Shown here piece by piece: positions 4,777-52,792 of a stretch of DNA of 64,000 nt (positions within the stretch are counted from its first letter, which is position 1; every line of letters starts with the position of its first letter). The translations under genes were made by a program, and so were the position numbers. This stretch comes from an uncultured Phycisphaerales bacterium (GTDB taxonomy: Bacteria > Planctomycetota > Phycisphaerae > WQYP01): positions 1-64,000 of the forward strand of contig CAIMWO010000094.1 in assembly GCA_903845195.1 (NCBI GenBank). Reading direction: 5' to 3'. Below the pieces are notes generated by a model. It ran no database searches. It was not told where the DNA came from and saw nothing but the letters and a program-made list of their open reading frames with translations.

Positions 4777-5973
4777 ATGGTGTTTGGCTTGTTTTCAAAT
4801 CGCGTCAATCCGATCGCCGTGGATATCGGCACGGATACGATAAAGCTCCTACAGGTGGAGCCGAAGGACGGTCAATTCCGTCTGGTGGCGGCGGCGTGCG
4901 AGATCATTCCGGAAGGGGTGCGGGGGAAGCCTGGGGAACGGGACGCGTTTGCGGCGGACGCAATTCATAAAATGGTTAACGATGGATTCAAGGCGCGGCA
5001 GGCGGTGACATGTTTGCCGGCGATGCACATGGCGGTGCAGCACCTGCGCATGGCGAAGATGGGGCACGATGAGCTGGTGAAGGCATTGCCGTTCGAGGCG
5101 GCGGGGAAGCTGCCGTTCGATGCGGGGCGGGCGGTGATCCGGCACACGATTGCGGGGGAGGTTTATCAGAACCAGGAGGCTTTGCAGGAAGTGATTGTCA
5201 TGGCGGCGCCGCGGGAAGCGGTGGATCGTCATTTGAACATTTTGAGCAAGGCGAAACTGGAGGTGGTGGGGATTCACGTGGAGCCGACGGCGCTGATCGA
5301 ATGTTTTGCACATTTATTCCGGCGCAAGGGGGACGAGACGGTGAGCACGCTGTTCATCGACATGGGGGCGGGCTCGACACACGTGGTGATTGCGCATGGC
5401 AAGAGCATGGTGTTTGCGAAGCATATTCCGGTGGGTGGGGAGACGTTCAACAAGCGGGTGTCCGAGGCGTTGAAGCAGGATGTGCGGGCGGCGCGGGAGC
5501 TGCGGGTGCGGGTGTCGCACCAGGAATCGCCGGCGAACCGACTGCCGGCGGGCGTGGTGCCGATCGGAGTCGAGGGGAACGGTCATCCACTGGGGCACAA
5601 CGGAACGAATGGTGCGGCGGTGGTGGATGAGGCGACGGTGGCGAAGGTGAAGGCGGCGATTGAGGAAGCGCTGGAAACGCTGGTGCTGGATCTGCAATTG
5701 TGCGTGCGCTATTACGAAAGCATCTTCCCGGGCAAGAGCGTGGAGCGGGCGATTTTTGTGGGCGGGGAGAGCCGGCATGTGGCGTTGTGCCAGGCGGTGG
5801 CGAAGCGGTTGTGCCTGCCGGCGACGCTGGGCGATCCGCTGGCGCGGCTGGTGAAGGATGGGCAGACGAAGGTGAAATTTGACATGCGTCAGCCGCAGCC
5901 GGGCTGGGCGATCGCGGTGGGACTGGGGATGGGCATTACAAGTGACAGAACAAATTCCCGAGAGGCGAATTGA
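4777..5973 (+). CDS. pilM: Type IV pilus assembly protein PilM
   Basis: A 398-residue actin-fold ATPase that sits in the cytoplasm, binds the PilN tail and links the inner-membrane platform to the motors. The start MVFGLFSNRVNPIAVDIGTD is typical of PilM (FGLF followed by the ADIG/VDIG phosphate loop), so ATG 4777 is chosen over the frame open to 4564, which encodes low-complexity sequence. A second phosphate loop (FIDMGAGSTHV, near residue 194) and the late FVGGES motif (about 326) match the actin-like fold. It is the first gene of the pil operon and is followed 8 bases later by pilN. Confidence 0.92.
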   Translation: MVFGLFSNRVNPIAVDIGTDTIKLLQVEPKDGQFRLVAAACEIIPEGVRGKPGERDAFAADAIHKMVNDGFKARQAVTCLPAMHMAVQHLRMAKMGHDELVKALPFEAAGKLPFDAGRAVIRHTIAGEVYQNQEALQEVIVMAAPREAVDRHLNILSKAKLEVVGIHVEPTALIECFAHLFRRKGDETVSTLFIDMGAGSTHVVIAHGKSMVFAKHIPVGGETFNKRVSEALKQDVRAARELRVRVSHQESPANRLPAGVVPIGVEGNGHPLGHNGTNGAAVVDEATVAKVKAAIEEALETLVLDLQLCVRYYESIFPGKSVERAIFVGGESRHVALCQAVAKRLCLPATLGDPLARLVKDGQTKVKFDMRQPQPGWAIAVGLGMGITSDRTNSREAN

Positions 5974-6719: not shown

Positions 6720-7277
6720 ATGCAATTCGGACCACGAACATTTTTCTTTGTGCTGCTGCTGCTGGCTTTGCCGATCGCGGCGTACTGGTTCCTGTTCAAG
6801 CCGCTGACGGAGCGTGAGAACGCGGCGAAGCTGGAAATTCAGGACAAGTCGCAGCAACTGCAGACGCTGCATCAGGCACTGGCAGGGCGGACGGGAATGA
6901 AGGGAGAAATCGAGGAGTTGCGGAAGGCGATTTCGTTCCTGGAAAGCCGCCTGCCGGAAGAGAAGGAAATGGACAAGGTGCTGAAGGAAGTATGGCAGCT
7001 TGCGGAAAAGCACGACCTGAACACGCGGAGTGTGCGCAGTTTGAAGGTGACGCAGGGGGCCAACTACAGCGAGCAGCCGATCCGGATGGTGATCTACGGC
7101 AAGCTGAAAGAAGGGTTCTATCCGTTCCTATGGGAGGTGGAGCACCTGCCGCGGCTGACGAAGATCAGCGAGATGAAGATCGACGCGGAGGAGAAGACGG
7201 GGAAAGTGACGGCGGATTTTGTGCTGACGATCTATTTTGAAGGCACGAGTCAGCAGAAAGTGGCGGTGGCACAATGA
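6720..7277 (+). CDS. pilO: Type IV pilus inner-membrane protein PilO
   Basis: A 185-residue protein with a single N-terminal membrane helix (about residues 7-26), a coiled coil (about 28-100 including FLESRLPEEKEM) and a ferredoxin-like fold. This is the standard PilO architecture and length. The FLESRLPEEKEM segment is characteristic of PilO. It overlaps the next gene by 4 bases (ATGA), indicating translational coupling. Confidence 0.88.
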   Translation: MQFGPRTFFFVLLLLALPIAAYWFLFKPLTERENAAKLEIQDKSQQLQTLHQALAGRTGMKGEIEELRKAISFLESRLPEEKEMDKVLKEVWQLAEKHDLNTRSVRSLKVTQGANYSEQPIRMVIYGKLKEGFYPFLWEVEHLPRLTKISEMKIDAEEKTGKVTADFVLTIYFEGTSQQKVAVAQ

Positions 7278-7951
7278 GTCAACAATGGGATGTGCATGAT
7301 GAGGAAGCGCAGGTGCCGCTGGGCGCCGGCGGCGATGCGGGGGCTGAATCGACGTATGTCGAGAACAAGGGAAAGTTCAACACGAGCACGCTGGCGCTGG
7401 TGGCCTCGTTCGTGGCGGCGCTGCTGGTGATCTACCTGCTAGGCCTGCAGAACAAGCCGCGGTCGGCCAGTGCCGAGCAGGTGGCGCGCGAGCAGGAAGT
7501 GCAATCGGCGATCACCGAGTTGCTGGAGAAGAACGGCAAGGCGGAACAGATTCAGGGATTGTTCAAGGACACGAACAAGCTGGTGAAGATGTTCTACAGC
7601 TACCTGGGTGCCCAGGGCGGCGAGCCGCCGGAGTTGGCGCACGATCCGTTTGGGCCGGAGGGAGCGGCGCCCAGCACGATTTCGACGGGCGATTTTTCGC
7701 CGGCGGCTCCGCGGGATTATGCCGAGGCGGAGAAGCTGCGGCGAGTCGCCGAGACGTTCAACGGTTTGAAGCTGCAGAGCGTAATGGTGAGCCGAAGCAT
7801 GTCGACGGCGATGATCAACAACAAGATGGTGACGGTGGGCGCGAAGTTCGGTGACCTGATGGTGATGGAGATTGAAGCGACGCGGGTGGTGCTCGCGTAT
7901 GAGAAGAACAAGTTTGAGTTGAAGCTGGCGCGGCCGGAGATGGAGCGATAG
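7274..7951 (+). CDS. PilP/GspC-like inner-membrane pilus protein
   Basis: A 225-residue protein with a polar N-terminus, one membrane helix (about residues 39-58), a helical/proline-rich linker and a small C-terminal beta domain. In that domain the pattern SVMVSRSMSTAMINNKMVTV...VLAYEKNKFELKL resembles the homology region of PilP and GspC, which contacts the secretin. Position directly after pilO supports a PilP role. It has no lipobox, unlike proteobacterial PilP, so it is an analogue or distant homologue. No secretin gene is in this window. Confidence 0.65.
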   Translation: MSQQWDVHDEEAQVPLGAGGDAGAESTYVENKGKFNTSTLALVASFVAALLVIYLLGLQNKPRSASAEQVAREQEVQSAITELLEKNGKAEQIQGLFKDTNKLVKMFYSYLGAQGGEPPELAHDPFGPEGAAPSTISTGDFSPAAPRDYAEAEKLRRVAETFNGLKLQSVMVSRSMSTAMINNKMVTVGAKFGDLMVMEIEATRVVLAYEKNKFELKLARPEMER

Positions 7952-43457: not shown

Positions 43458-45305
43458 ATGTGCGGAATTGTCGCCTACGTCGGTAAGAAGAATGCTCAAT
43501 CCCTGCTCCTCGAGGGACTTAAGCGCCTCGAATATCGTGGCTATGACTCCTCCGGCATCTGCATCGGCGACAAGCACGGCCTGCACGTCCGCCGTGCCGT
43601 TGGCCGCATCTCCATCCTCGAAGCCTCCCTAGAAGCTTCCGGCCAGCACCTCCCTCCCGGGCACATCGGCATGGCCCACACTCGCTGGGCCACCCACGGC
43701 GCCCCCACCGAAATCAATGCCCACCCTCACGTCGATGACCACAACACCATCGCCCTGGTTCATAATGGCATCATCGAAAACTACGCCACGCTCAAACAGT
43801 TGCTGATCGAAAAAGGCCACAAGTTTGCCTCGCAGACGGATACCGAAGTCCTTGCCGTGCTCATCGCCCATTTCTACAAGGGGCACGAAGATGACGGCCT
43901 GGCCAAAGCGGTCCAAGCCGCCCTGCACGAAGCCCGTGGCACCTATGGCATTGCGGTCATGTCCGCACATGACCCGGAAACACTTGTCGTCGCCCGCCGC
44001 GGCTCGCCGCTGATCATCGGCGTGGGCAATGGCGAGTATGTCGTCGCATCCGATGCGGCAGCCATCGTCGAACACACCACGCAGGTCGTCTATTTGAACG
44101 ACAACGAAATGGCGGTCATCAAGCCCGCCAGTTTCAAGACCATGACCATCGACGATGTGCCGGTCACCCCGGAGATCAAAGAAGTCGAATTCAAGCTCGA
44201 ACAGATGGAACTCGGCAAGTACGACCACTTCATGCTCAAGGAAATCTTCGAGCAGCCCATCTCCATCGAAAACTGCCTCCGCGGCCGCATCGATCTTCAC
44301 GAAGGCCGCGTCGTCCTTGGCGGCCTGGCCAACTACGCACGCGACCTCGTCCGCGCCCGCCGCATCATCATCACCGGCTGCGGCACCGCCTGGCATGCCG
44401 GGCTCGTCGGTGAATATCTCATGGAAGACCTCGCCAAGATTCCCACCGAAGTCGAATACGCTTCCGAGTTCCGCTACCGCAACCCCATCGTCGAAGATGG
44501 CACCATCGTCATCGCCATCAGCCAGTCCGGCGAAACCGCCGACACGCTGGCCGCACTCCGCGAAGCGAAAGATCGTGGTGCGTTGTCGCTGGGCATCATC
44601 AATACCGTCGGTTCCACGATCGCACGCGAAACTGATGCTGGCGTCTATTTGCATGTCGGTCCGGAAATCGGCGTCGCCTCTACTAAGGCATTTTCCGGGC
44701 AGCTCGTGGTCGAGTCGCTCCTGGCGCTTTTCATCGCTCGCCGCAAGTACATGAGTCAGAATGTGCTCAACGAATTCCTCACCGCCCTGACCAAGGTCCC
44801 TGAGAAGCTCAAGACGGTTCTCGAACAGTCCGAGCACATCAAGACCATCGCCGCCCAGTACGTCGACCGCGAAAACTGGCTTTTCCTCGGCCGCGGATAC
44901 AATTATCCCGTCGCATTGGAAGGCGCCTTGAAGCTCAAGGAGATTTCCTACATCCATGCGGAAGGATTGCCTGCTGCGGAAATGAAGCATGGCCCCATCG
45001 CGTTGATTTCCGCCGGCATGCCCGTGGTGTTCATCGCCCCCAAGGGTTCGCAGTACGAAAAAATTCTCGGTAACATTCAGGAAGTCAAAGCCCGTGGCGG
45101 CAAGATTATCGCCGTGGCCAGCGAAGGCGACGAACACATTCACACCGTCGCCGATCACGTCATCCATGTGCCGGAAATCATCGAGCCTTTGCAGCCCCTG
45201 CTCACCGTTGTGCCGCTGCAGTTGCTGGCCTATCACGCCGCCGTCGCCCGCGGCTGCAACGTCGACAAGCCGCGCAATCTGGCCAAGAGCGTGACGGTGG
45301 AGTAA
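43458..45305 (+). CDS. glmS: Glutamine-fructose-6-phosphate aminotransferase
   Basis: A 615-residue enzyme making glucosamine-6-phosphate for cell-wall synthesis. The N-terminal glutaminase starts with the catalytic Cys (MCGIVAYVG). Two SIS sugar-isomerase domains follow (TGCGTAWHAG near 308; SQSGETADT near 356). It ends in the canonical KPRNLAKSVTVE. No glmS ribozyme is seen in the 255-bp upstream gap, which has a TAGAAT box near 43323. The stop TAA (45303-45305) overlaps the start of the next gene, and the last 66 bp are duplicated at 46263-46328. Confidence 0.96.
   Translation: MCGIVAYVGKKNAQSLLLEGLKRLEYRGYDSSGICIGDKHGLHVRRAVGRISILEASLEASGQHLPPGHIGMAHTRWATHGAPTEINAHPHVDDHNTIALVHNGIIENYATLKQLLIEKGHKFASQTDTEVLAVLIAHFYKGHEDDGLAKAVQAALHEARGTYGIAVMSAHDPETLVVARRGSPLIIGVGNGEYVVASDAAAIVEHTTQVVYLNDNEMAVIKPASFKTMTIDDVPVTPEIKEVEFKLEQMELGKYDHFMLKEIFEQPISIENCLRGRIDLHEGRVVLGGLANYARDLVRARRIIITGCGTAWHAGLVGEYLMEDLAKIPTEVEYASEFRYRNPIVEDGTIVIAISQSGETADTLAALREAKDRGALSLGIINTVGSTIARETDAGVYLHVGPEIGVASTKAFSGQLVVESLLALFIARRKYMSQNVLNEFLTALTKVPEKLKTVLEQSEHIKTIAAQYVDRENWLFLGRGYNYPVALEGALKLKEISYIHAEGLPAAEMKHGPIALISAGMPVVFIAPKGSQYEKILGNIQEVKARGGKIIAVASEGDEHIHTVADHVIHVPEIIEPLQPLLTVVPLQLLAYHAAVARGCNVDKPRNLAKSVTVE
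45240..45305 (+). repeat. glmS 3' end, left attachment-like repeat
   Basis: The last 21 codons plus stop of glmS. It matches 46263-46328 at 64 of 66 positions. The two differences are synonymous in the glmS frame (GTC/GTA and GAG/GAA). It forms the left boundary of the RelA/SpoT module. Confidence 0.9.
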
Positions 45306-45991
45306 TGGCGGCACTGAGCAAGACACAAGTCGACCATCTTGGAGACCGCCTGCGAAATGGTCCACACTCGGAGGCTGATCTTCGTCTGCTCGATGAATAC
45401 CGACTCTCTTTCGGCCCCTCGTATGAATTCGTTCTCCACAGGCTTCGTGAACATTCACAGGCCCCGACGGGTCGGTTCCCAAAATCCACTCCCTCGATCG
45501 TAGAAAAACTCCGCCGCGAGAGTATCAGGCTTAGCCAAGTACAGGACATTGCCGGCTGCAGAGTGATTGTTACAAACATCGCACAGCAGGAAAAGTTGGC
45601 AAATGAGTTGAGGTCGGATTTCCCCTCAATGATCATCGTAGATCGTCGCAAGACGCCAAGTCACGGGTATCGAGCAGTTCACATCATCGTAGAAGTCGGC
45701 GGAAAGCACGTCGAAATTCAAGCACGAACTGCGTTACAACACCAATGGGCCGAAATCTCCGAAAAGGCTTCTGATGTAATTGACGCCACCATTAAATATG
45801 GCGGCGGTGACGATTTCTGGCGACCGTTGTTATTGCAAAGCAGTGATTTCATAAGCTCTTGTGAAGACATGGAAGGCGTCAATTTCGACGCCACGAACCG
45901 GAAACGATTGAAGTCGTATCGAAATAGTATTCTGAAGATCTTGGGCTATATGCTATTATTGCTGGACAAGACCAAGGAGCGTAAAGCATGA
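45305..45991 (+). CDS. RelA/SpoT-domain nucleotidyltransferase (alarmone-synthetase-like)
   Basis: A 228-residue protein with a (p)ppGpp synthetase fold and no hydrolase, TGS or ACT domain. Key motifs: SQVQDIAGCRVIV (about residues 78-90), SHGYRAVHIIVEVGGKHVEIQARTALQHQWAE split as GYRAVH, EIQ and WAE (about 120-151), which hold the catalytic Arg, Glu and the His-x-x-Trp segment. Its ATG overlaps the glmS stop (TAATG), so translation is probably coupled to glmS. The coding sequence is visibly less GC-rich than glmS. It could be a small alarmone synthetase, a toxic (ToxSAS-like) enzyme, or a defence effector. The downstream gene overlaps by 4 bases. Confidence 0.82.
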   Translation: MAALSKTQVDHLGDRLRNGPHSEADLRLLDEYRLSFGPSYEFVLHRLREHSQAPTGRFPKSTPSIVEKLRRESIRLSQVQDIAGCRVIVTNIAQQEKLANELRSDFPSMIIVDRRKTPSHGYRAVHIIVEVGGKHVEIQARTALQHQWAEISEKASDVIDATIKYGGGDDFWRPLLLQSSDFISSCEDMEGVNFDATNRKRLKSYRNSILKILGYMLLLLDKTKERKA

Positions 45992-46230
45992 TCTTCCTTA
46001 TTGAATATAATCGAAGCAGAGGCGCACTTATCACCTTTCGCGCCTTCAAGGATTCCGAGCGACGGAACGCCGAAGGCATTCGCCTCGATCTCGAACTTGA
46101 TCTCAACCGCAAAGGGCTCGATCACGAGGTCGTCATTCTCGAAGCGGCGAACGAAGATGCCTTGCGCCGGACTCATAGACGGTACTTCGAAGACCTCCGT
46201 GGCCTCCTGACGACTGCGCCAGCCGCCTGA
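45988..46230 (+). CDS. Small partner of the RelA/SpoT-domain gene
   Basis: An 80-residue protein whose ATG overlaps the previous stop (ATGA). Sequence begins MIFLIEYNRSRGALITFRAF and continues with an acidic-basic helical part (RNAEGIRLDLELDLNRKG) and a conserved-looking RRTHRRYFEDL end. Such short alpha/beta proteins commonly follow RelA/SpoT-domain genes (recollection, not checked). It could be an antitoxin or regulator. Composition is like its partner and unlike the flanks. Confidence 0.7.
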   Translation: MIFLIEYNRSRGALITFRAFKDSERRNAEGIRLDLELDLNRKGLDHEVVILEAANEDALRRTHRRYFEDLRGLLTTAPAA

Positions 46231-47722
46231 AAAATAACGTCACATTCAAGTCACCCATCCGTGCCGTAGCCCGCGGCTGCAACGTCGACAAGCCGCGCAA
46301 TCTGGCCAAGAGCGTGACGGTGGAATAAGCCCGAATACGACACACGATCAGTGCCGCCAGAATTATCGTTGCGGCCATGACGCACATCGGACCCAGCCAG
46401 GCATCGAGCGGAATGCGACCGTGCGGCTGAATCTGGATTCGGCCGCTGATCCGCTGACCTTGGCCCGGGAACTCGGCGGTTGCCATCACTTGGCCATTCG
46501 GCTCGACGATCTGTGAGATCCCCGAGCTGCACACCCGCACCACCGGCACGGCATATTCGGCAGCACGTACCGGACCCATTCGCGCATGCTCCGCATGTTC
46601 GCTGGCTCCCCATGAGATCAGATCCATCGTCGGCACGATGATCGCTCCTGCCCCATCGCGGATCAGTGCATCCGTCACTTGCCGGTAACTCAAATCGTAA
46701 CAAATGCACAACCCGATTTTTCCCCACGGCGAATCCCACACCCGCTGTTCCTTCGCGGGCAGGCCATCCGAAAAGAACTGGATCGGCCTGCACTTGCCTT
46801 GCTTGAAGGCCACTTCGCCTTGCGGCCCAACCACAAAGGCGGTGTTCATGTAGACGTCTGACGAAGAATTCGCGGGATCGGTGCCGCCGACGATCAGGTA
46901 GCGCCGGTGGATCCTGCACCAGTCGTGTACCGACTTGGGTACGGGGCCGTAGAACGAATATTCGCCGAGGACGAGCAGATCGGCCTGAGGATAGGCGATG
47001 AGCGCCTCGTTGAGCGCCGCGAGAATCTGTTCTTCGGAAACGTTCTCCAACTGAATGCCGACCACAAAGGGTTGGGCCGACTGAGAAACGGCCGGCGGGG
47101 TCCACGTTGAGGGCCAATCCGTAATCCCGGCCCATGCCGCCATAAGGATCGCCCCTGTAATCACGCCCTTTTTCATCGGCAGCAACAATAGTCCCGCGGC
47201 GAGCGTCATCAATACGAACCCCACGCCGTAGACTCCAAGGTTTCCCAGCCTCCCCGCCTCCGGAAAGGCCATGGCCACATTCATCCAAGAAAAACGCAGC
47301 GGATACACCTCGCTGCGAAAGTACTCCAAACCGGTCCACAGTATCGGCAACGCCATTATCGCTAAGAGCGGCGGAAACGATCGGCGGCAACCGCGCCCCA
47401 GAATCAGAAACAGCGCCGGCCAGAGCGCGGCGATCAGCCACAATCCCAACGCTGCGTAGTGAAAGATTCCCCAGAAGAAGGCCAGCCGAGGCGCAAACAG
47501 GGACACACCGAGGATCAGACCGAAATAGAACGTGAAACGGGGCGTTCGCAAAGTCGTCAGTTTGCAGAGGCAAAAGAGAAATACCCCCACCAGAAACCCC
47601 AGCGGGCGGAACGCAAACGCCAGATGAAATGTGGCGATCGCGGCTATCCCGTAGCCGATCGCACTTGTCCAAGAAAGGGGGACAAACCGCTCATCGGACA
47701 GATTCTTCAGCGGAGCGCCCAT
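46133..47722 (-). CDS. lnt: Apolipoprotein N-acyltransferase-like protein with an altered C-terminus
   Basis: A 529-residue frame from ATG 47722 (GGAGG upstream). About six membrane helices (to residue 200) precede a nitrilase-fold domain with the catalytic triad visible: Glu in LVLGEYSFYG, Lys in KQGKCRPIQFF, Cys in LCICYDLSYRQ. A last membrane helix (VMAATIILAALIVC, about 450-463) follows, where Lnt normally ends. The frame then runs through the minus strand of the glmS repeat and into the partner gene for about 64 residues, to the stop at 46133. The native stop was probably lost when the module inserted. Confidence 0.78.
   Translation of the reverse strand: MGAPLKNLSDERFVPLSWTSAIGYGIAAIATFHLAFAFRPLGFLVGVFLFCLCKLTTLRTPRFTFYFGLILGVSLFAPRLAFFWGIFHYAALGLWLIAALWPALFLILGRGCRRSFPPLLAIMALPILWTGLEYFRSEVYPLRFSWMNVAMAFPEAGRLGNLGVYGVGFVLMTLAAGLLLLPMKKGVITGAILMAAWAGITDWPSTWTPPAVSQSAQPFVVGIQLENVSEEQILAALNEALIAYPQADLLVLGEYSFYGPVPKSVHDWCRIHRRYLIVGGTDPANSSSDVYMNTAFVVGPQGEVAFKQGKCRPIQFFSDGLPAKEQRVWDSPWGKIGLCICYDLSYRQVTDALIRDGAGAIIVPTMDLISWGASEHAEHARMGPVRAAEYAVPVVRVCSSGISQIVEPNGQVMATAEFPGQGQRISGRIQIQPHGRIPLDAWLGPMCVMAATIILAALIVCRIRAYSTVTLLARLRGLSTLQPRATARMGDLNVTLFFRRLAQSSGGHGGLRSTVYESGARHLRSPLRE
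46263..46328 (+). repeat. glmS 3' end, right attachment-like repeat
   Basis: 66 bp repeating the last 22 codons (with stop) of glmS, two synonymous changes from the copy at 45240-45305. It marks the right boundary of the inserted module and lies inside the open reading frame of lnt on the other strand. Confidence 0.9.
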
Positions 47723-50796: not shown

Positions 50797-51303
50797 ATGT
50801 CGCCTGCCGAGGAATTCATCAGCGAACTCCTCCAGCCGTCCACGACCTTCAGCACCGCGGGAATGTCCCACGGCGAACCGGGACTGCCGACTTCATTCTT
50901 TTGGCGCAAGCAGGAAGTGCACGTCGTCGAGGTCCTCAAGACCTGGAAAGAATCCGGCCCATGCACCCACGGCAGCGGAGAACTCTATCTCCGCAAACAT
51001 TGGTATCAACTGCTCATGAATGACCGCACGGTTTGGACCGTCTACTTCGAACGCAAGGCCCGCTCCACCCACGACCGCAAACGCCGGTGGTGGCTTTACA
51101 CCCGTGCATCTGATTGCCGTGGGCCGGAGCCTTGCAGGTCAACGAAGCGTATCCGGGGGTGTCGCGGGCGCGAAACCCCCGGCTATCATGTGCGTGCCCT
51201 TCGGGCACGGATCGGCGCATGGTGCGCCCCGAAGGGGTGGCGTCGTGCGAGATACCAGTCGCGTTCATTGAATCGCGTTCTGTTTTTTGATCCGTGTCCC
51301 TAA
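50797..51303 (+). CDS. DUF6504-like protein with repeat-derived tail
   Basis: The conserved part is about 105 residues from ATG 50797: FFWRKQEVHVVEVLKTWKESG, LYLRKHWYQLLMNDRTVW and RRWWLYTRASD resemble DUF6504-type small proteins. A promoter-like TATAAT is at 50758-50763. After WWLYTRASD the frame continues through the palindromic repeat at 51153-51209 to 51303, adding some 60 basic residues that look non-native. So the original stop may have been lost through repeat insertion. Confidence 0.6.
   Translation: MSPAEEFISELLQPSTTFSTAGMSHGEPGLPTSFFWRKQEVHVVEVLKTWKESGPCTHGSGELYLRKHWYQLLMNDRTVWTVYFERKARSTHDRKRRWWLYTRASDCRGPEPCRSTKRIRGCRGRETPGYHVRALRARIGAWCAPKGWRRARYQSRSLNRVLFFDPCP
51153..51209. repeat. 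Palindromic repeat flanking the nuclease gene, left copy
   Basis: Two hairpins in series: CCGGGGGT 51153-51160 with ACCCCCGG 51175-51182, then CGTGCCC 51193-51199 with GGGCACG 51203-51209. The sequence between the arms and the CTATCA that follows are shared with 52642-52697. A further hairpin (GCGCCCC...GGGGTGGC) follows near 51223-51242. Confidence 0.85.
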
Positions 51304-51344
51304 TTCTTTTGCTAACGGCAGAACGCGGATATGATCACTTCGTC

Positions 51345-52430
51345 ATGGCTATATCGCCAATTCTCACATGCCACGGACGGCAAGTTGACAATCAATTCGG
51401 CCTGCTCTCACGTAACGAGAACGGATTGACGTTTGCGCTGGGCTATGTTCTCAGCAAATGCCCAAATTTCTTGCGGCATTTTCTTCGACGGCTAGATATT
51501 GGCGCGGCTAGCCATAGGACGATTCGTTCAATTCATCTGCAGCGTCATTCCGACTCTGATGAATCCTTCGGGATCACAGACATCGACATTGTCGGAGAAG
51601 ATTTTTATCTGGTTATCGAGGCAAAAAAACACGGCTGGCCGACGATAAAGCAGCTACGCGGATACGCAGACGAGCTTGCGGCGACTAAACGACAACGAAA
51701 GCTGTATCTATGTGCCTTAGGCGTGTCGCCGGTTTGCGATTCGGAAGCACGGAATTGGGCGGCACGTAATAATGTGAATGTTATACATCTTCGTTGGCAT
51801 GACATTGTGGCAATTATTCGGGCATTATGCCGACAACCGGACAATCAGGAGTCGGTGACTCTTTCTGTCCTTGCCGATTTTATTGAGGAGGTTATCGCCA
51901 TGCCGTCTTACGACGTCGAGGTCCTAGTTCGCGATATTAAATTCCCGCATGAGTCAAGCAGCTTGTACTACGACCACCTTCTCTATAACTCTGGCGCAAA
52001 GCGCATCGCGGAGCCTTTGTTCTTCGCTCCGAATATCACGAAGCCAGCTCCGCTGGCGATGGATGGTATTCAGTTCATCAGTCGGGTTTATCATATAGAT
52101 CGGTTTAACGTACATAATAGACAAGAGGCTCACAGTGCCCTCGAACGCGCAAGGAAACTAATCAACGAGCGAATTGCTGTGCTCAAAAGACGCAAGACCA
52201 CCAAGGATTCGATCACGTATCTGAGCGACCTTCCCAGCAAATGGGCTAGAGGAATACGCCGGATGCCGCACGTTTGGCCATCAGATAAAAAGAATGTCGC
52301 GATCCTGTTTCTCGGAGAGCCAATGCGGTTGCCCATGGCGGTCAAAAAGAAGGGCGGACAGATCCCCCCGGGATTCAATCTCACGCTGGAGTCCCTATTG
52401 ATTGGTGGAAGTAGATCATTTATGTGCTAG
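51345..52430 (+). CDS. PD-(D/E)XK nuclease-like protein
   Basis: About 361 residues from ATG 51345; a GTG at 51294 is an alternative. The nuclease core is near residues 65-120: Asp in GITDIDIVG, then LVIEAKKHGW holding the E-x-K pair, followed by a helix (KQLRGYADELAATK). The C-terminal half has no recognised domain. The gene is less GC-rich than its neighbours and is flanked by direct copies of a palindromic repeat, so horizontal gain is likely. No methylase or specificity subunit is adjacent. It may be a solitary restriction or defence nuclease; inference. Confidence 0.65.
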   Translation: MAISPILTCHGRQVDNQFGLLSRNENGLTFALGYVLSKCPNFLRHFLRRLDIGAASHRTIRSIHLQRHSDSDESFGITDIDIVGEDFYLVIEAKKHGWPTIKQLRGYADELAATKRQRKLYLCALGVSPVCDSEARNWAARNNVNVIHLRWHDIVAIIRALCRQPDNQESVTLSVLADFIEEVIAMPSYDVEVLVRDIKFPHESSSLYYDHLLYNSGAKRIAEPLFFAPNITKPAPLAMDGIQFISRVYHIDRFNVHNRQEAHSALERARKLINERIAVLKRRKTTKDSITYLSDLPSKWARGIRRMPHVWPSDKKNVAILFLGEPMRLPMAVKKKGGQIPPGFNLTLESLLIGGSRSFMC

Positions 52431-52792
52431 GCAGCGTCCGCAATTACCCCATCTGCAGATTGGTCCAATTTGGAATTTTGCGCGAACAGAAAAGAGGACG
52501 CGATTCAGTTCGGTGCATGGTCTTCTGATTTTGAGTGGTCAGTGATTCATGGAAACAAAGCCCCGCATTGCCATGCGGGGCTCTGGGCGGGGGGGTCGAT
52601 GCGACCCCGGTGGGGTCGGGGATGATTTGTGGCGATGTTTACCGGGGGTGTCGCATGCGCGAAACCCCCGGCTATCACGGGTGAGCCCTGCGGGCTCGTT
52701 TGGTTATTCTTCGTTCGACTTCTGCATAACAACCCGGTACGGCTTCATTGCCTTGACTCTCTGCGACACCATTCTGACTCTGCGCGGCACAA
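52431..52792. other. Repeat-rich intergenic region
   Basis: No gene. Contains a hairpin GCCCCGCAT...ATGCGGGGC at about 52560-52581, a GGTCGATGCGACC-type palindrome near 52595-52610, and the right copy of the nuclease-flanking repeat (52642-52697). The leuC stop is at its right end. Confidence 0.55.
52642..52697. repeat. Palindromic repeat flanking the nuclease gene, right copy
   Basis: CCGGGGGT 52642-52649 with ACCCCCGG 52664-52671, then GAGCCC 52683-52688 with GGGCTC 52692-52697. It matches the left copy (51153-51209) in stem, spacing and the shared GCGCGAAACCCCCGGCTATCA core; the second stem differs by compensating changes (GTGCCC/GGGCAC against GAGCCC/GGGCTC), evidence that structure is conserved. 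Confidence 0.85.

Follow-up and report, generated by a model that had tools for sequence, protein, structure and literature searches.

The toxic small alarmone synthetase (toxSAS) pair described here lies directly behind glmS, an essential cell-wall gene, in a 64,000-nucleotide (nt) stretch of DNA from an uncultured Phycisphaerales bacterium (contig CAIMWO010000094.1, positions 1 to 64,000), the whole of which is called the window below. Its closest described counterparts are the PhRel:ATphRel pair of the Mycobacterium phage Phrann (gp29/gp30) and CapRel (CapRel-SJ46). According to PMC9712102, CapRel has a toxin region related to PhRel and an antitoxin region related to ATphRel, and most members of the PhRel subfamily are unfused; the biochemistry of CapRel and PhRel is covered in PMC9712102 and PMC11782079. 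For another kind of genes, the restriction-modification (RM) systems, insertion with long and variable target duplications, on the order of 100 bp, has been described (PMC3874152; PMC3031569), and in their passages on this subject both papers cite Nobusato 2000 and Furuta 2010. In the window, the pair is flanked by two copies of the last 66 nt of glmS. We consider it likely that the pair arrived behind glmS by the same kind of long-target-duplication insertion, and that it is probably read from glmS and serves an anti-phage and addiction function.

Just as in Phrann, the two genes in the window are adjacent, the toxin comes first, and it is synthetase-only. The antitoxin resembles Phrann gp30 in its start, FLIE(Y/F)NR, and in a TH(S/R)RYF motif, and the toxin shares ~37% identity with gp29 across part of its length. 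However, the Phrann pair is phage-borne, whereas pairs of the window type are chromosomal in Planctomycetota and others, and the window toxin belongs to a large clade of its own in the toxin tree. CapRel (PDB 7ztb, 9erv) is the nearest solved structure of the toxin, and its antitoxin domain is homologous to the partner, but CapRel is a single polypeptide with a YXXY motif (YPNY), whereas the window has two open reading frames (ORFs) with an ATGA overlap and an HxRY motif. Similarly, PADLOC PDC-S33, a single-gene computational candidate for phage defence, spans both parts, which are split in the window. The RM insertions are alike in that an addiction-type module without a mobility gene is flanked by a long, variable, direct target duplication. 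They differ in the genes concerned, RM genes there and a toxSAS pair here, where the duplications seen are gene 3′ ends.

The pair and the duplicated glmS end

The features of the locus are as follows.

43458-45305, plus strand: glmS (glucosamine-6-phosphate synthase), intact host gene, 615 amino acids (aa), with SIS and GATase domains
45240-45305, plus strand: left copy of the duplicated glmS 3′ end (21 codons and stop), part of the functional glmS
45305-45991, plus strand: predicted PhRel/CapRel-type toxSAS toxin (ORF1), 228 aa, RelA/SpoT synthetase domain only
45988-46230, plus strand: predicted stand-alone antitoxin (ORF2), ATphRel/CapRel pseudo-zinc-finger type, 80 aa, THRRYF motif
46231-46262, plus strand: spacer of 32 nt from the antitoxin stop to the right copy, with no recognised feature
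46263-46328, plus strand: right copy of the glmS 3′ end, 5′-truncated and non-functional; in antisense, an extension of the convergent lnt-like ORF

The direct repeat (45240-45305 and 46263-46328) is identical at 64 of its 66 nt, with a longest exact stretch of 56 nt. No other short-range direct repeat in the window comes near it in strength (self-BLAST E 1.5e-18), and the next-best ungapped match to the glmS end inside 1.5 kb is 30/66. Both mismatches, C/A at 45245/46268 (GTC/GTA, Val) and G/A at 45302/46325 (GAG/GAA, Glu), are synonymous in the glmS frame. The toxin ATG overlaps the glmS TAA as TAATG, and since the two copies match exactly through the last A of the TAA, the A of this ATG belongs to the duplicated segment. 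A single full copy of glmS is present in the source genome, and homologues exist in nearly all relatives; these are equally close to both 66-nt copies and point to neither as the ancestral one. The GC content is 51.5% in the module, 59.4% in glmS and 58.8% in the window, and equally low values occur in 3% of the 925-nt windows. A preliminary description of this DNA had reported the duplication, a synthetase-only RelA/SpoT protein overlapping an 80-residue partner by ATGA, and a lower GC content than that of glmS. On recheck, the repeat positions and identity proved exact, and the other two points were borne out by the ORFs, the Pfam result below and the GC values.

The only Pfam domain of ORF1 is PF04607 (RelA/SpoT synthetase, E 2.6e-15), without hydrolase or regulatory domains. 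When a profile of eight relatives was compared with the PDB, CapRel (9erv, 7ztb) was the best solved sequence match, and the AlphaFold2 model of the toxin (predicted local distance difference test, pLDDT, 94) gave 7ztb, again CapRel, as the best Foldseek match (E 2.8e-9, template-modelling score 0.71). The 349-aa PDC-S33 model is covered at 7-233 by ORF1 (E 1.2e-32) and at 265-333 by ORF2. In 39 homologues, D81, the G-loop GYR (Y122), E137 and Q139 are invariant or nearly so; with roles assigned by homology, the catalytic motifs (metal-binding Asp, G-loop Tyr, and Glu/Gln on the last strand) appear intact. In the domain tree, where basal support is weak, the window family groups together and is joined by Phrann gp29, which does not fall with the fused proteins.

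No sequence match for the partner was found in the PDB. In hhalign comparisons, its profile matched Phrann gp30 (ATphRel) at 97.1%, with 62 aa aligned at 40% identity, and fused CapRel-like proteins, in their C-terminal domain, at 96.9%. The AlphaFold2 model (pLDDT 86) has a β-β-α-β order, with two strands, a long helix, a third strand and short helices, and this predicted topology agrees with the published one of the CapRel pseudo-zinc-finger antitoxin (PMC9712102). Where fused CapRel-like proteins have AYPNYF, the window family and Phrann gp30 have THxRYF; T62, H63, R65 and F67 are invariant across 40 partners, so that HxRY stands at the position aligned with YXXY. On these homologies, the 80-aa partner corresponds to the CapRel antitoxin domain in stand-alone form and is homologous to Phrann gp30, and the module as a whole falls into the PhRel:ATphRel group as a bicistronic toxSAS toxin-antitoxin system.

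Homologous modules, gene-end scars and empty sites

A single-sequence query of genome contigs with the toxin gave no matches, and an alignment query found 44 close relatives, distributed over Planctomycetota, Acidobacteriota, Gemmatimonadota, Elusimicrobia, Hydrogenedentota, Deltaproteobacteria and others; nearly all sequences used in this work are metagenome-assembled genomes. The partner stands beside the toxin in 42 of the 44, often with the ATGA overlap, the other two being cut by contig ends. Among family relatives of the window genome, the toxin was not found in our search. An obligate pair with a sporadic spread is the expected look of a horizontally moving toxin-antitoxin module. The homologous pairs adjoin many unrelated genes, three of them (L083, L084 and L087) without visible duplication, and a pair at glmS was seen once; the earlier suggestion that glmS is a dedicated landing site therefore finds no support.

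Rather than homologous pairs at the same place in all relatives, without empty sites or a duplicated glmS end, which the preliminary description had named as refuting its reading, we found relatives without the pair at glmS. No second glmS end was present within 1.5 kb downstream at the relatives' glmS loci compared, from which L003 and L017 (read in the wrong orientation) and L020 (contig end) were left out. Across about 300 genomes of the class, the exact glmS-end motif occurs as an extra partial copy only in the source genome and in two others, G112 and G162. In the former (L124, G112:C144, 1905 and 15929), the second glmS 3′ end lies 14 kb downstream, behind a type II secretion operon, and extends ~30 nt past the stop; this distance, the operon in between and the extension beyond the stop mark it as a different event. 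In the latter (L129, G162:C234, 6083-6562, minus strand), the first ~55 codons of glmS are fused to the last ~20 beside a contig end; a normal glmS exists elsewhere in that genome, and the fused copy is either a real internal deletion or an assembly product. Four genomes flagged for two glmS ends (G197, G209, G170 and G189) were rejected as insertions, since each has two glmS copies, and the protein endings 'YSTVTLLARLRG' were rejected as a mobile repeat, since they belong to genes convergent with glmS that read into it in antisense.

To assess flanking repeats, 200-nt flanks were compared without gaps at a score of at least 14. Strong direct repeats were found at 4 of 40 modules and in 11 of 753 control intervals from the same sequences (Fisher p = 0.005, the control windows inside one locus not being independent), and the enrichment, which persists without the window (p = 0.028), is moderate. 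Apart from the window, L211 has, beyond the module, ~38 nt (84%) of decayed sequence copied from the end of the topoisomerase IB gene that lies upstream; in L213, the copied end is that of the ABC substrate-binding gene upstream (~108 nt, 70%). In L218, the far side of the module carries a repeat (~76 nt, 78%) of a convergent redoxin gene's end (RPEQMLEAAR...), so that here the module is opposite in orientation to its host gene. With wider flanks, two 240-nt fragments of a DUF2130-like gene end were found in L209 and a 165-nt copy of a gene end in L228. These gene names were taken from translations and not from database annotation. A 66-bp repeat in L220, which looks like a dispersed intergenic element, and an inverted repeat in L224 were left out. 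The duplications around homologues thus range from 38 to 240 nt and derive from the ends of different genes without a shared core, and every assignable one is a gene 3′ end. Probably this reflects selection: a copy that includes the stop leaves a complete gene, whereas a more internal one does not.

Empty sites in related genomes, which the preliminary description had proposed to look for, were found for two homologous modules. In G680, a relative of the L218 host, the stop of the left-flank hydrolase gene lies 13 nt from the redoxin end, and nothing corresponds to the 2.6-kb insert of L218, which consists of another ORF, the copied redoxin end and the toxin-antitoxin module. G738 is related to the L213 host; in it the substrate-binding gene is followed after ~110 nt by the same cyclase gene, with no module between them, and the extra copy of L213 aligns to the single gene end. 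As judged by this comparison, both modules are insertions accompanied by duplication of a gene 3′ end. For L211, no empty site was found, the relatives having topoisomerase IB without the adjoining downstream flank.

Several observations were made beside these loci. The L218 redoxin gene (5050-5800, minus strand) has an in-frame TGA at its active site (YRGYW-U-PFC) and likely encodes a selenoprotein read through this codon; 2.6 kb away, the gene end is fused to a fragment of this active site. In L351 (G672:C453, ~6858-7420, minus strand), an orphan ATphRel-like antitoxin without a toxin directly follows the end of a substrate-binding gene, the same kind of site as that of the full module in L213. 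A different two-gene cassette in L325 (G688:C48, 3794-5485) has chimeric flanking repeats that combine the topoisomerase IB gene end with that of another gene. The cassette lies far from the actual topoisomerase gene, and the G688 genome seems to contain dispersed fragments of gene ends.

For the window itself, an insertion with target duplication has to be weighed against several unfavourable points. No empty site for it was found among family relatives; the gene downstream of glmS differs in them, which makes the ancestral junction unreadable. Control positions also carry repeats, at a background rate, and the comparison of translated flanks (9 of 40 modules vs. 53 of 474 controls) is weak and noisy. 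Some 34 of the 40 relatives have no detectable duplication, which means that the scars decay or that other routes dominate. As to the identity of the partner, Foldseek with its small model placed 9erv only at rank 5 (E 2), a weak match. Taken together, the results lead us to infer that the module was inserted directly behind glmS with duplication of the last 66 nt of its target; before this event, the glmS end would have been joined directly to GCCCGAATACG. The host gene would have stayed intact because the duplication covers its 3′ end including the stop. Such insertion, described for RM systems, is seen here for toxSAS, and it is new for the latter as far as a limited literature search goes.

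Other explanations of the duplicated ends

The repeats might instead act as homology arms. The cassette would excise as a circle between the gene-end repeats and re-enter other genomes by a single crossover at the same conserved gene end, so that the duplication is regenerated each time, no integrase is needed and the host gene stays intact. Repeats of 66-240 nt are long enough for plausible recombination, and the glmS end is highly conserved; in addition, two modules on one contig adjoin the 3′ ends of the same substrate-binding gene family, the orphan antitoxin behind a substrate-binding gene in another genome is suggestive, and cassettes in L209 and G688 are flanked by fragments of gene ends at a distance from any full gene. 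However, neither a circular form nor a donor was seen, no stand-alone glmS ends were found in viral contigs (all 57 matches read as glmS genes), most modules lack repeats, and the pair occurs at glmS only once. We therefore regard this possibility as rather unlikely. If it were true, small toxin-antitoxin cassettes would spread without a recombinase of their own, with a captured gene 3′ end as the homology arm, and the glmS end, conserved across bacteria, would be an ideal dock, with the host gene as the expression platform.

The preliminary description had compared the locus, which carries no integrase, with the site-specific integration of elements that target tRNA genes. In such a case the recombinase that integrated the element into glmS would have been supplied in trans or lost later. 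Integration by a tyrosine recombinase classically leaves just such a product, a gene restored by a duplicated 3′ end, but homologous modules duplicate the 3′ ends of various genes, at varying lengths and without a shared core, and no attP-like glmS end was found in viral contigs. Nor was an integrase, transposase or insertion sequence found among the Pfam-scanned genes at 39-50.7 kb. The comparison is consequently not supported, and we consider such integration improbable.

No better placed is a relic of a tandem glmS duplication, in which the second glmS was replaced by the module except for its last 66 nt. Second glmS genes do occur in G170, G189, G197 and G209, and in G162 a glmS start is fused to its end. 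Against this speak the 97% identity over 66 nt that then breaks off abruptly, no trace of the rest of glmS, and the empty sites of homologous modules, which hold a single gene end; the relic thus has little likelihood.

It is very improbable that the toxin gene encodes a housekeeping small alarmone synthetase or that the duplication is an assembly artefact. The catalytic domain is common to RelQ/RelP and the genome is in 97 contigs, but the spread of the pair is patchy, an antitoxin-like partner is obligate and CapRel is the nearest structure; moreover, the longest exact stretch between the copies is only 56 nt, and the same type of scar occurs in independent assemblies. Finally, Tn7-like transposition also uses the glmS end, the coding sequence of which is recognised by TnsD-type targeting, but Tn7 inserts beyond glmS with a 5-bp duplication, whereas here a 1-kb insert of two genes has a 66-nt one and neither a transposase nor element ends, which makes this explanation scarcely credible.

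Proposed action of the pair and neighbouring features

Because the toxin gene starts on the glmS stop, the glmS transcript probably also serves the module, with coupled translation, and the placement (TAATG) would let glmS transcription and translation feed it, as had been proposed at the outset. A consensus scan for sigma-70-like promoters gave one match, which lies inside the toxin gene, and none ahead of it; this fits a dependence on glmS but is no proof of it. The proposal of a toxin-antitoxin or anti-phage cassette that carries no integrase and leaves the host gene whole likewise agrees with the PhRel/CapRel homology and with the Pfam scan.

By analogy with CapRel and PhRel, the partner would keep the toxin inactive by occupying the ATP-donor site with a motif of the HxxY/YxxY type. 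Once released, either by a phage product or because the antitoxin is lost, the toxin would pyrophosphorylate tRNA 3′ ends, halt translation and abort the infection; loss of the module would thereby be costly to the host. Toxicity, neutralisation, the tRNA target and the phage trigger are all assigned by this analogy, and a suicide switch against phages is on this basis the probable role of the pair.

It is a long-standing question by what route small defence and addiction modules that lack mobility genes pass from one genome to another. The locus, its homologues and the two empty sites provide a concrete footprint, a duplicated gene 3′ end, which extends long-target-duplication insertion from RM systems to toxSAS pairs and offers an explanation for the frequent position of such pairs immediately behind host genes. 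It also gives a search rule for recently arrived defence modules, namely 5′-truncated copies of the end of a neighbouring gene. In addition, the family adds a large, sporadic branch of unfused PhRel-like systems with HxRY in place of the YxxY neutralisation motif.

Two further features were observed in the window. The lnt-like gene (46329-47722, minus strand) is without a stop of its own; running antisense to glmS, it crosses the right copy of the glmS end and continues into the module. In family relatives, homologues of this gene are nearly absent or very distant. Five kb downstream, a second island of low GC content (50%; 51153-52698) is bracketed by a palindromic 57-nt direct repeat (86%). 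It contains a 378-aa ORF (51294-52430) with weak matches to PD-(D/E)XK nucleases and PADLOC PDC-M15A, and is possibly another defence gene inserted with a flanking duplication.

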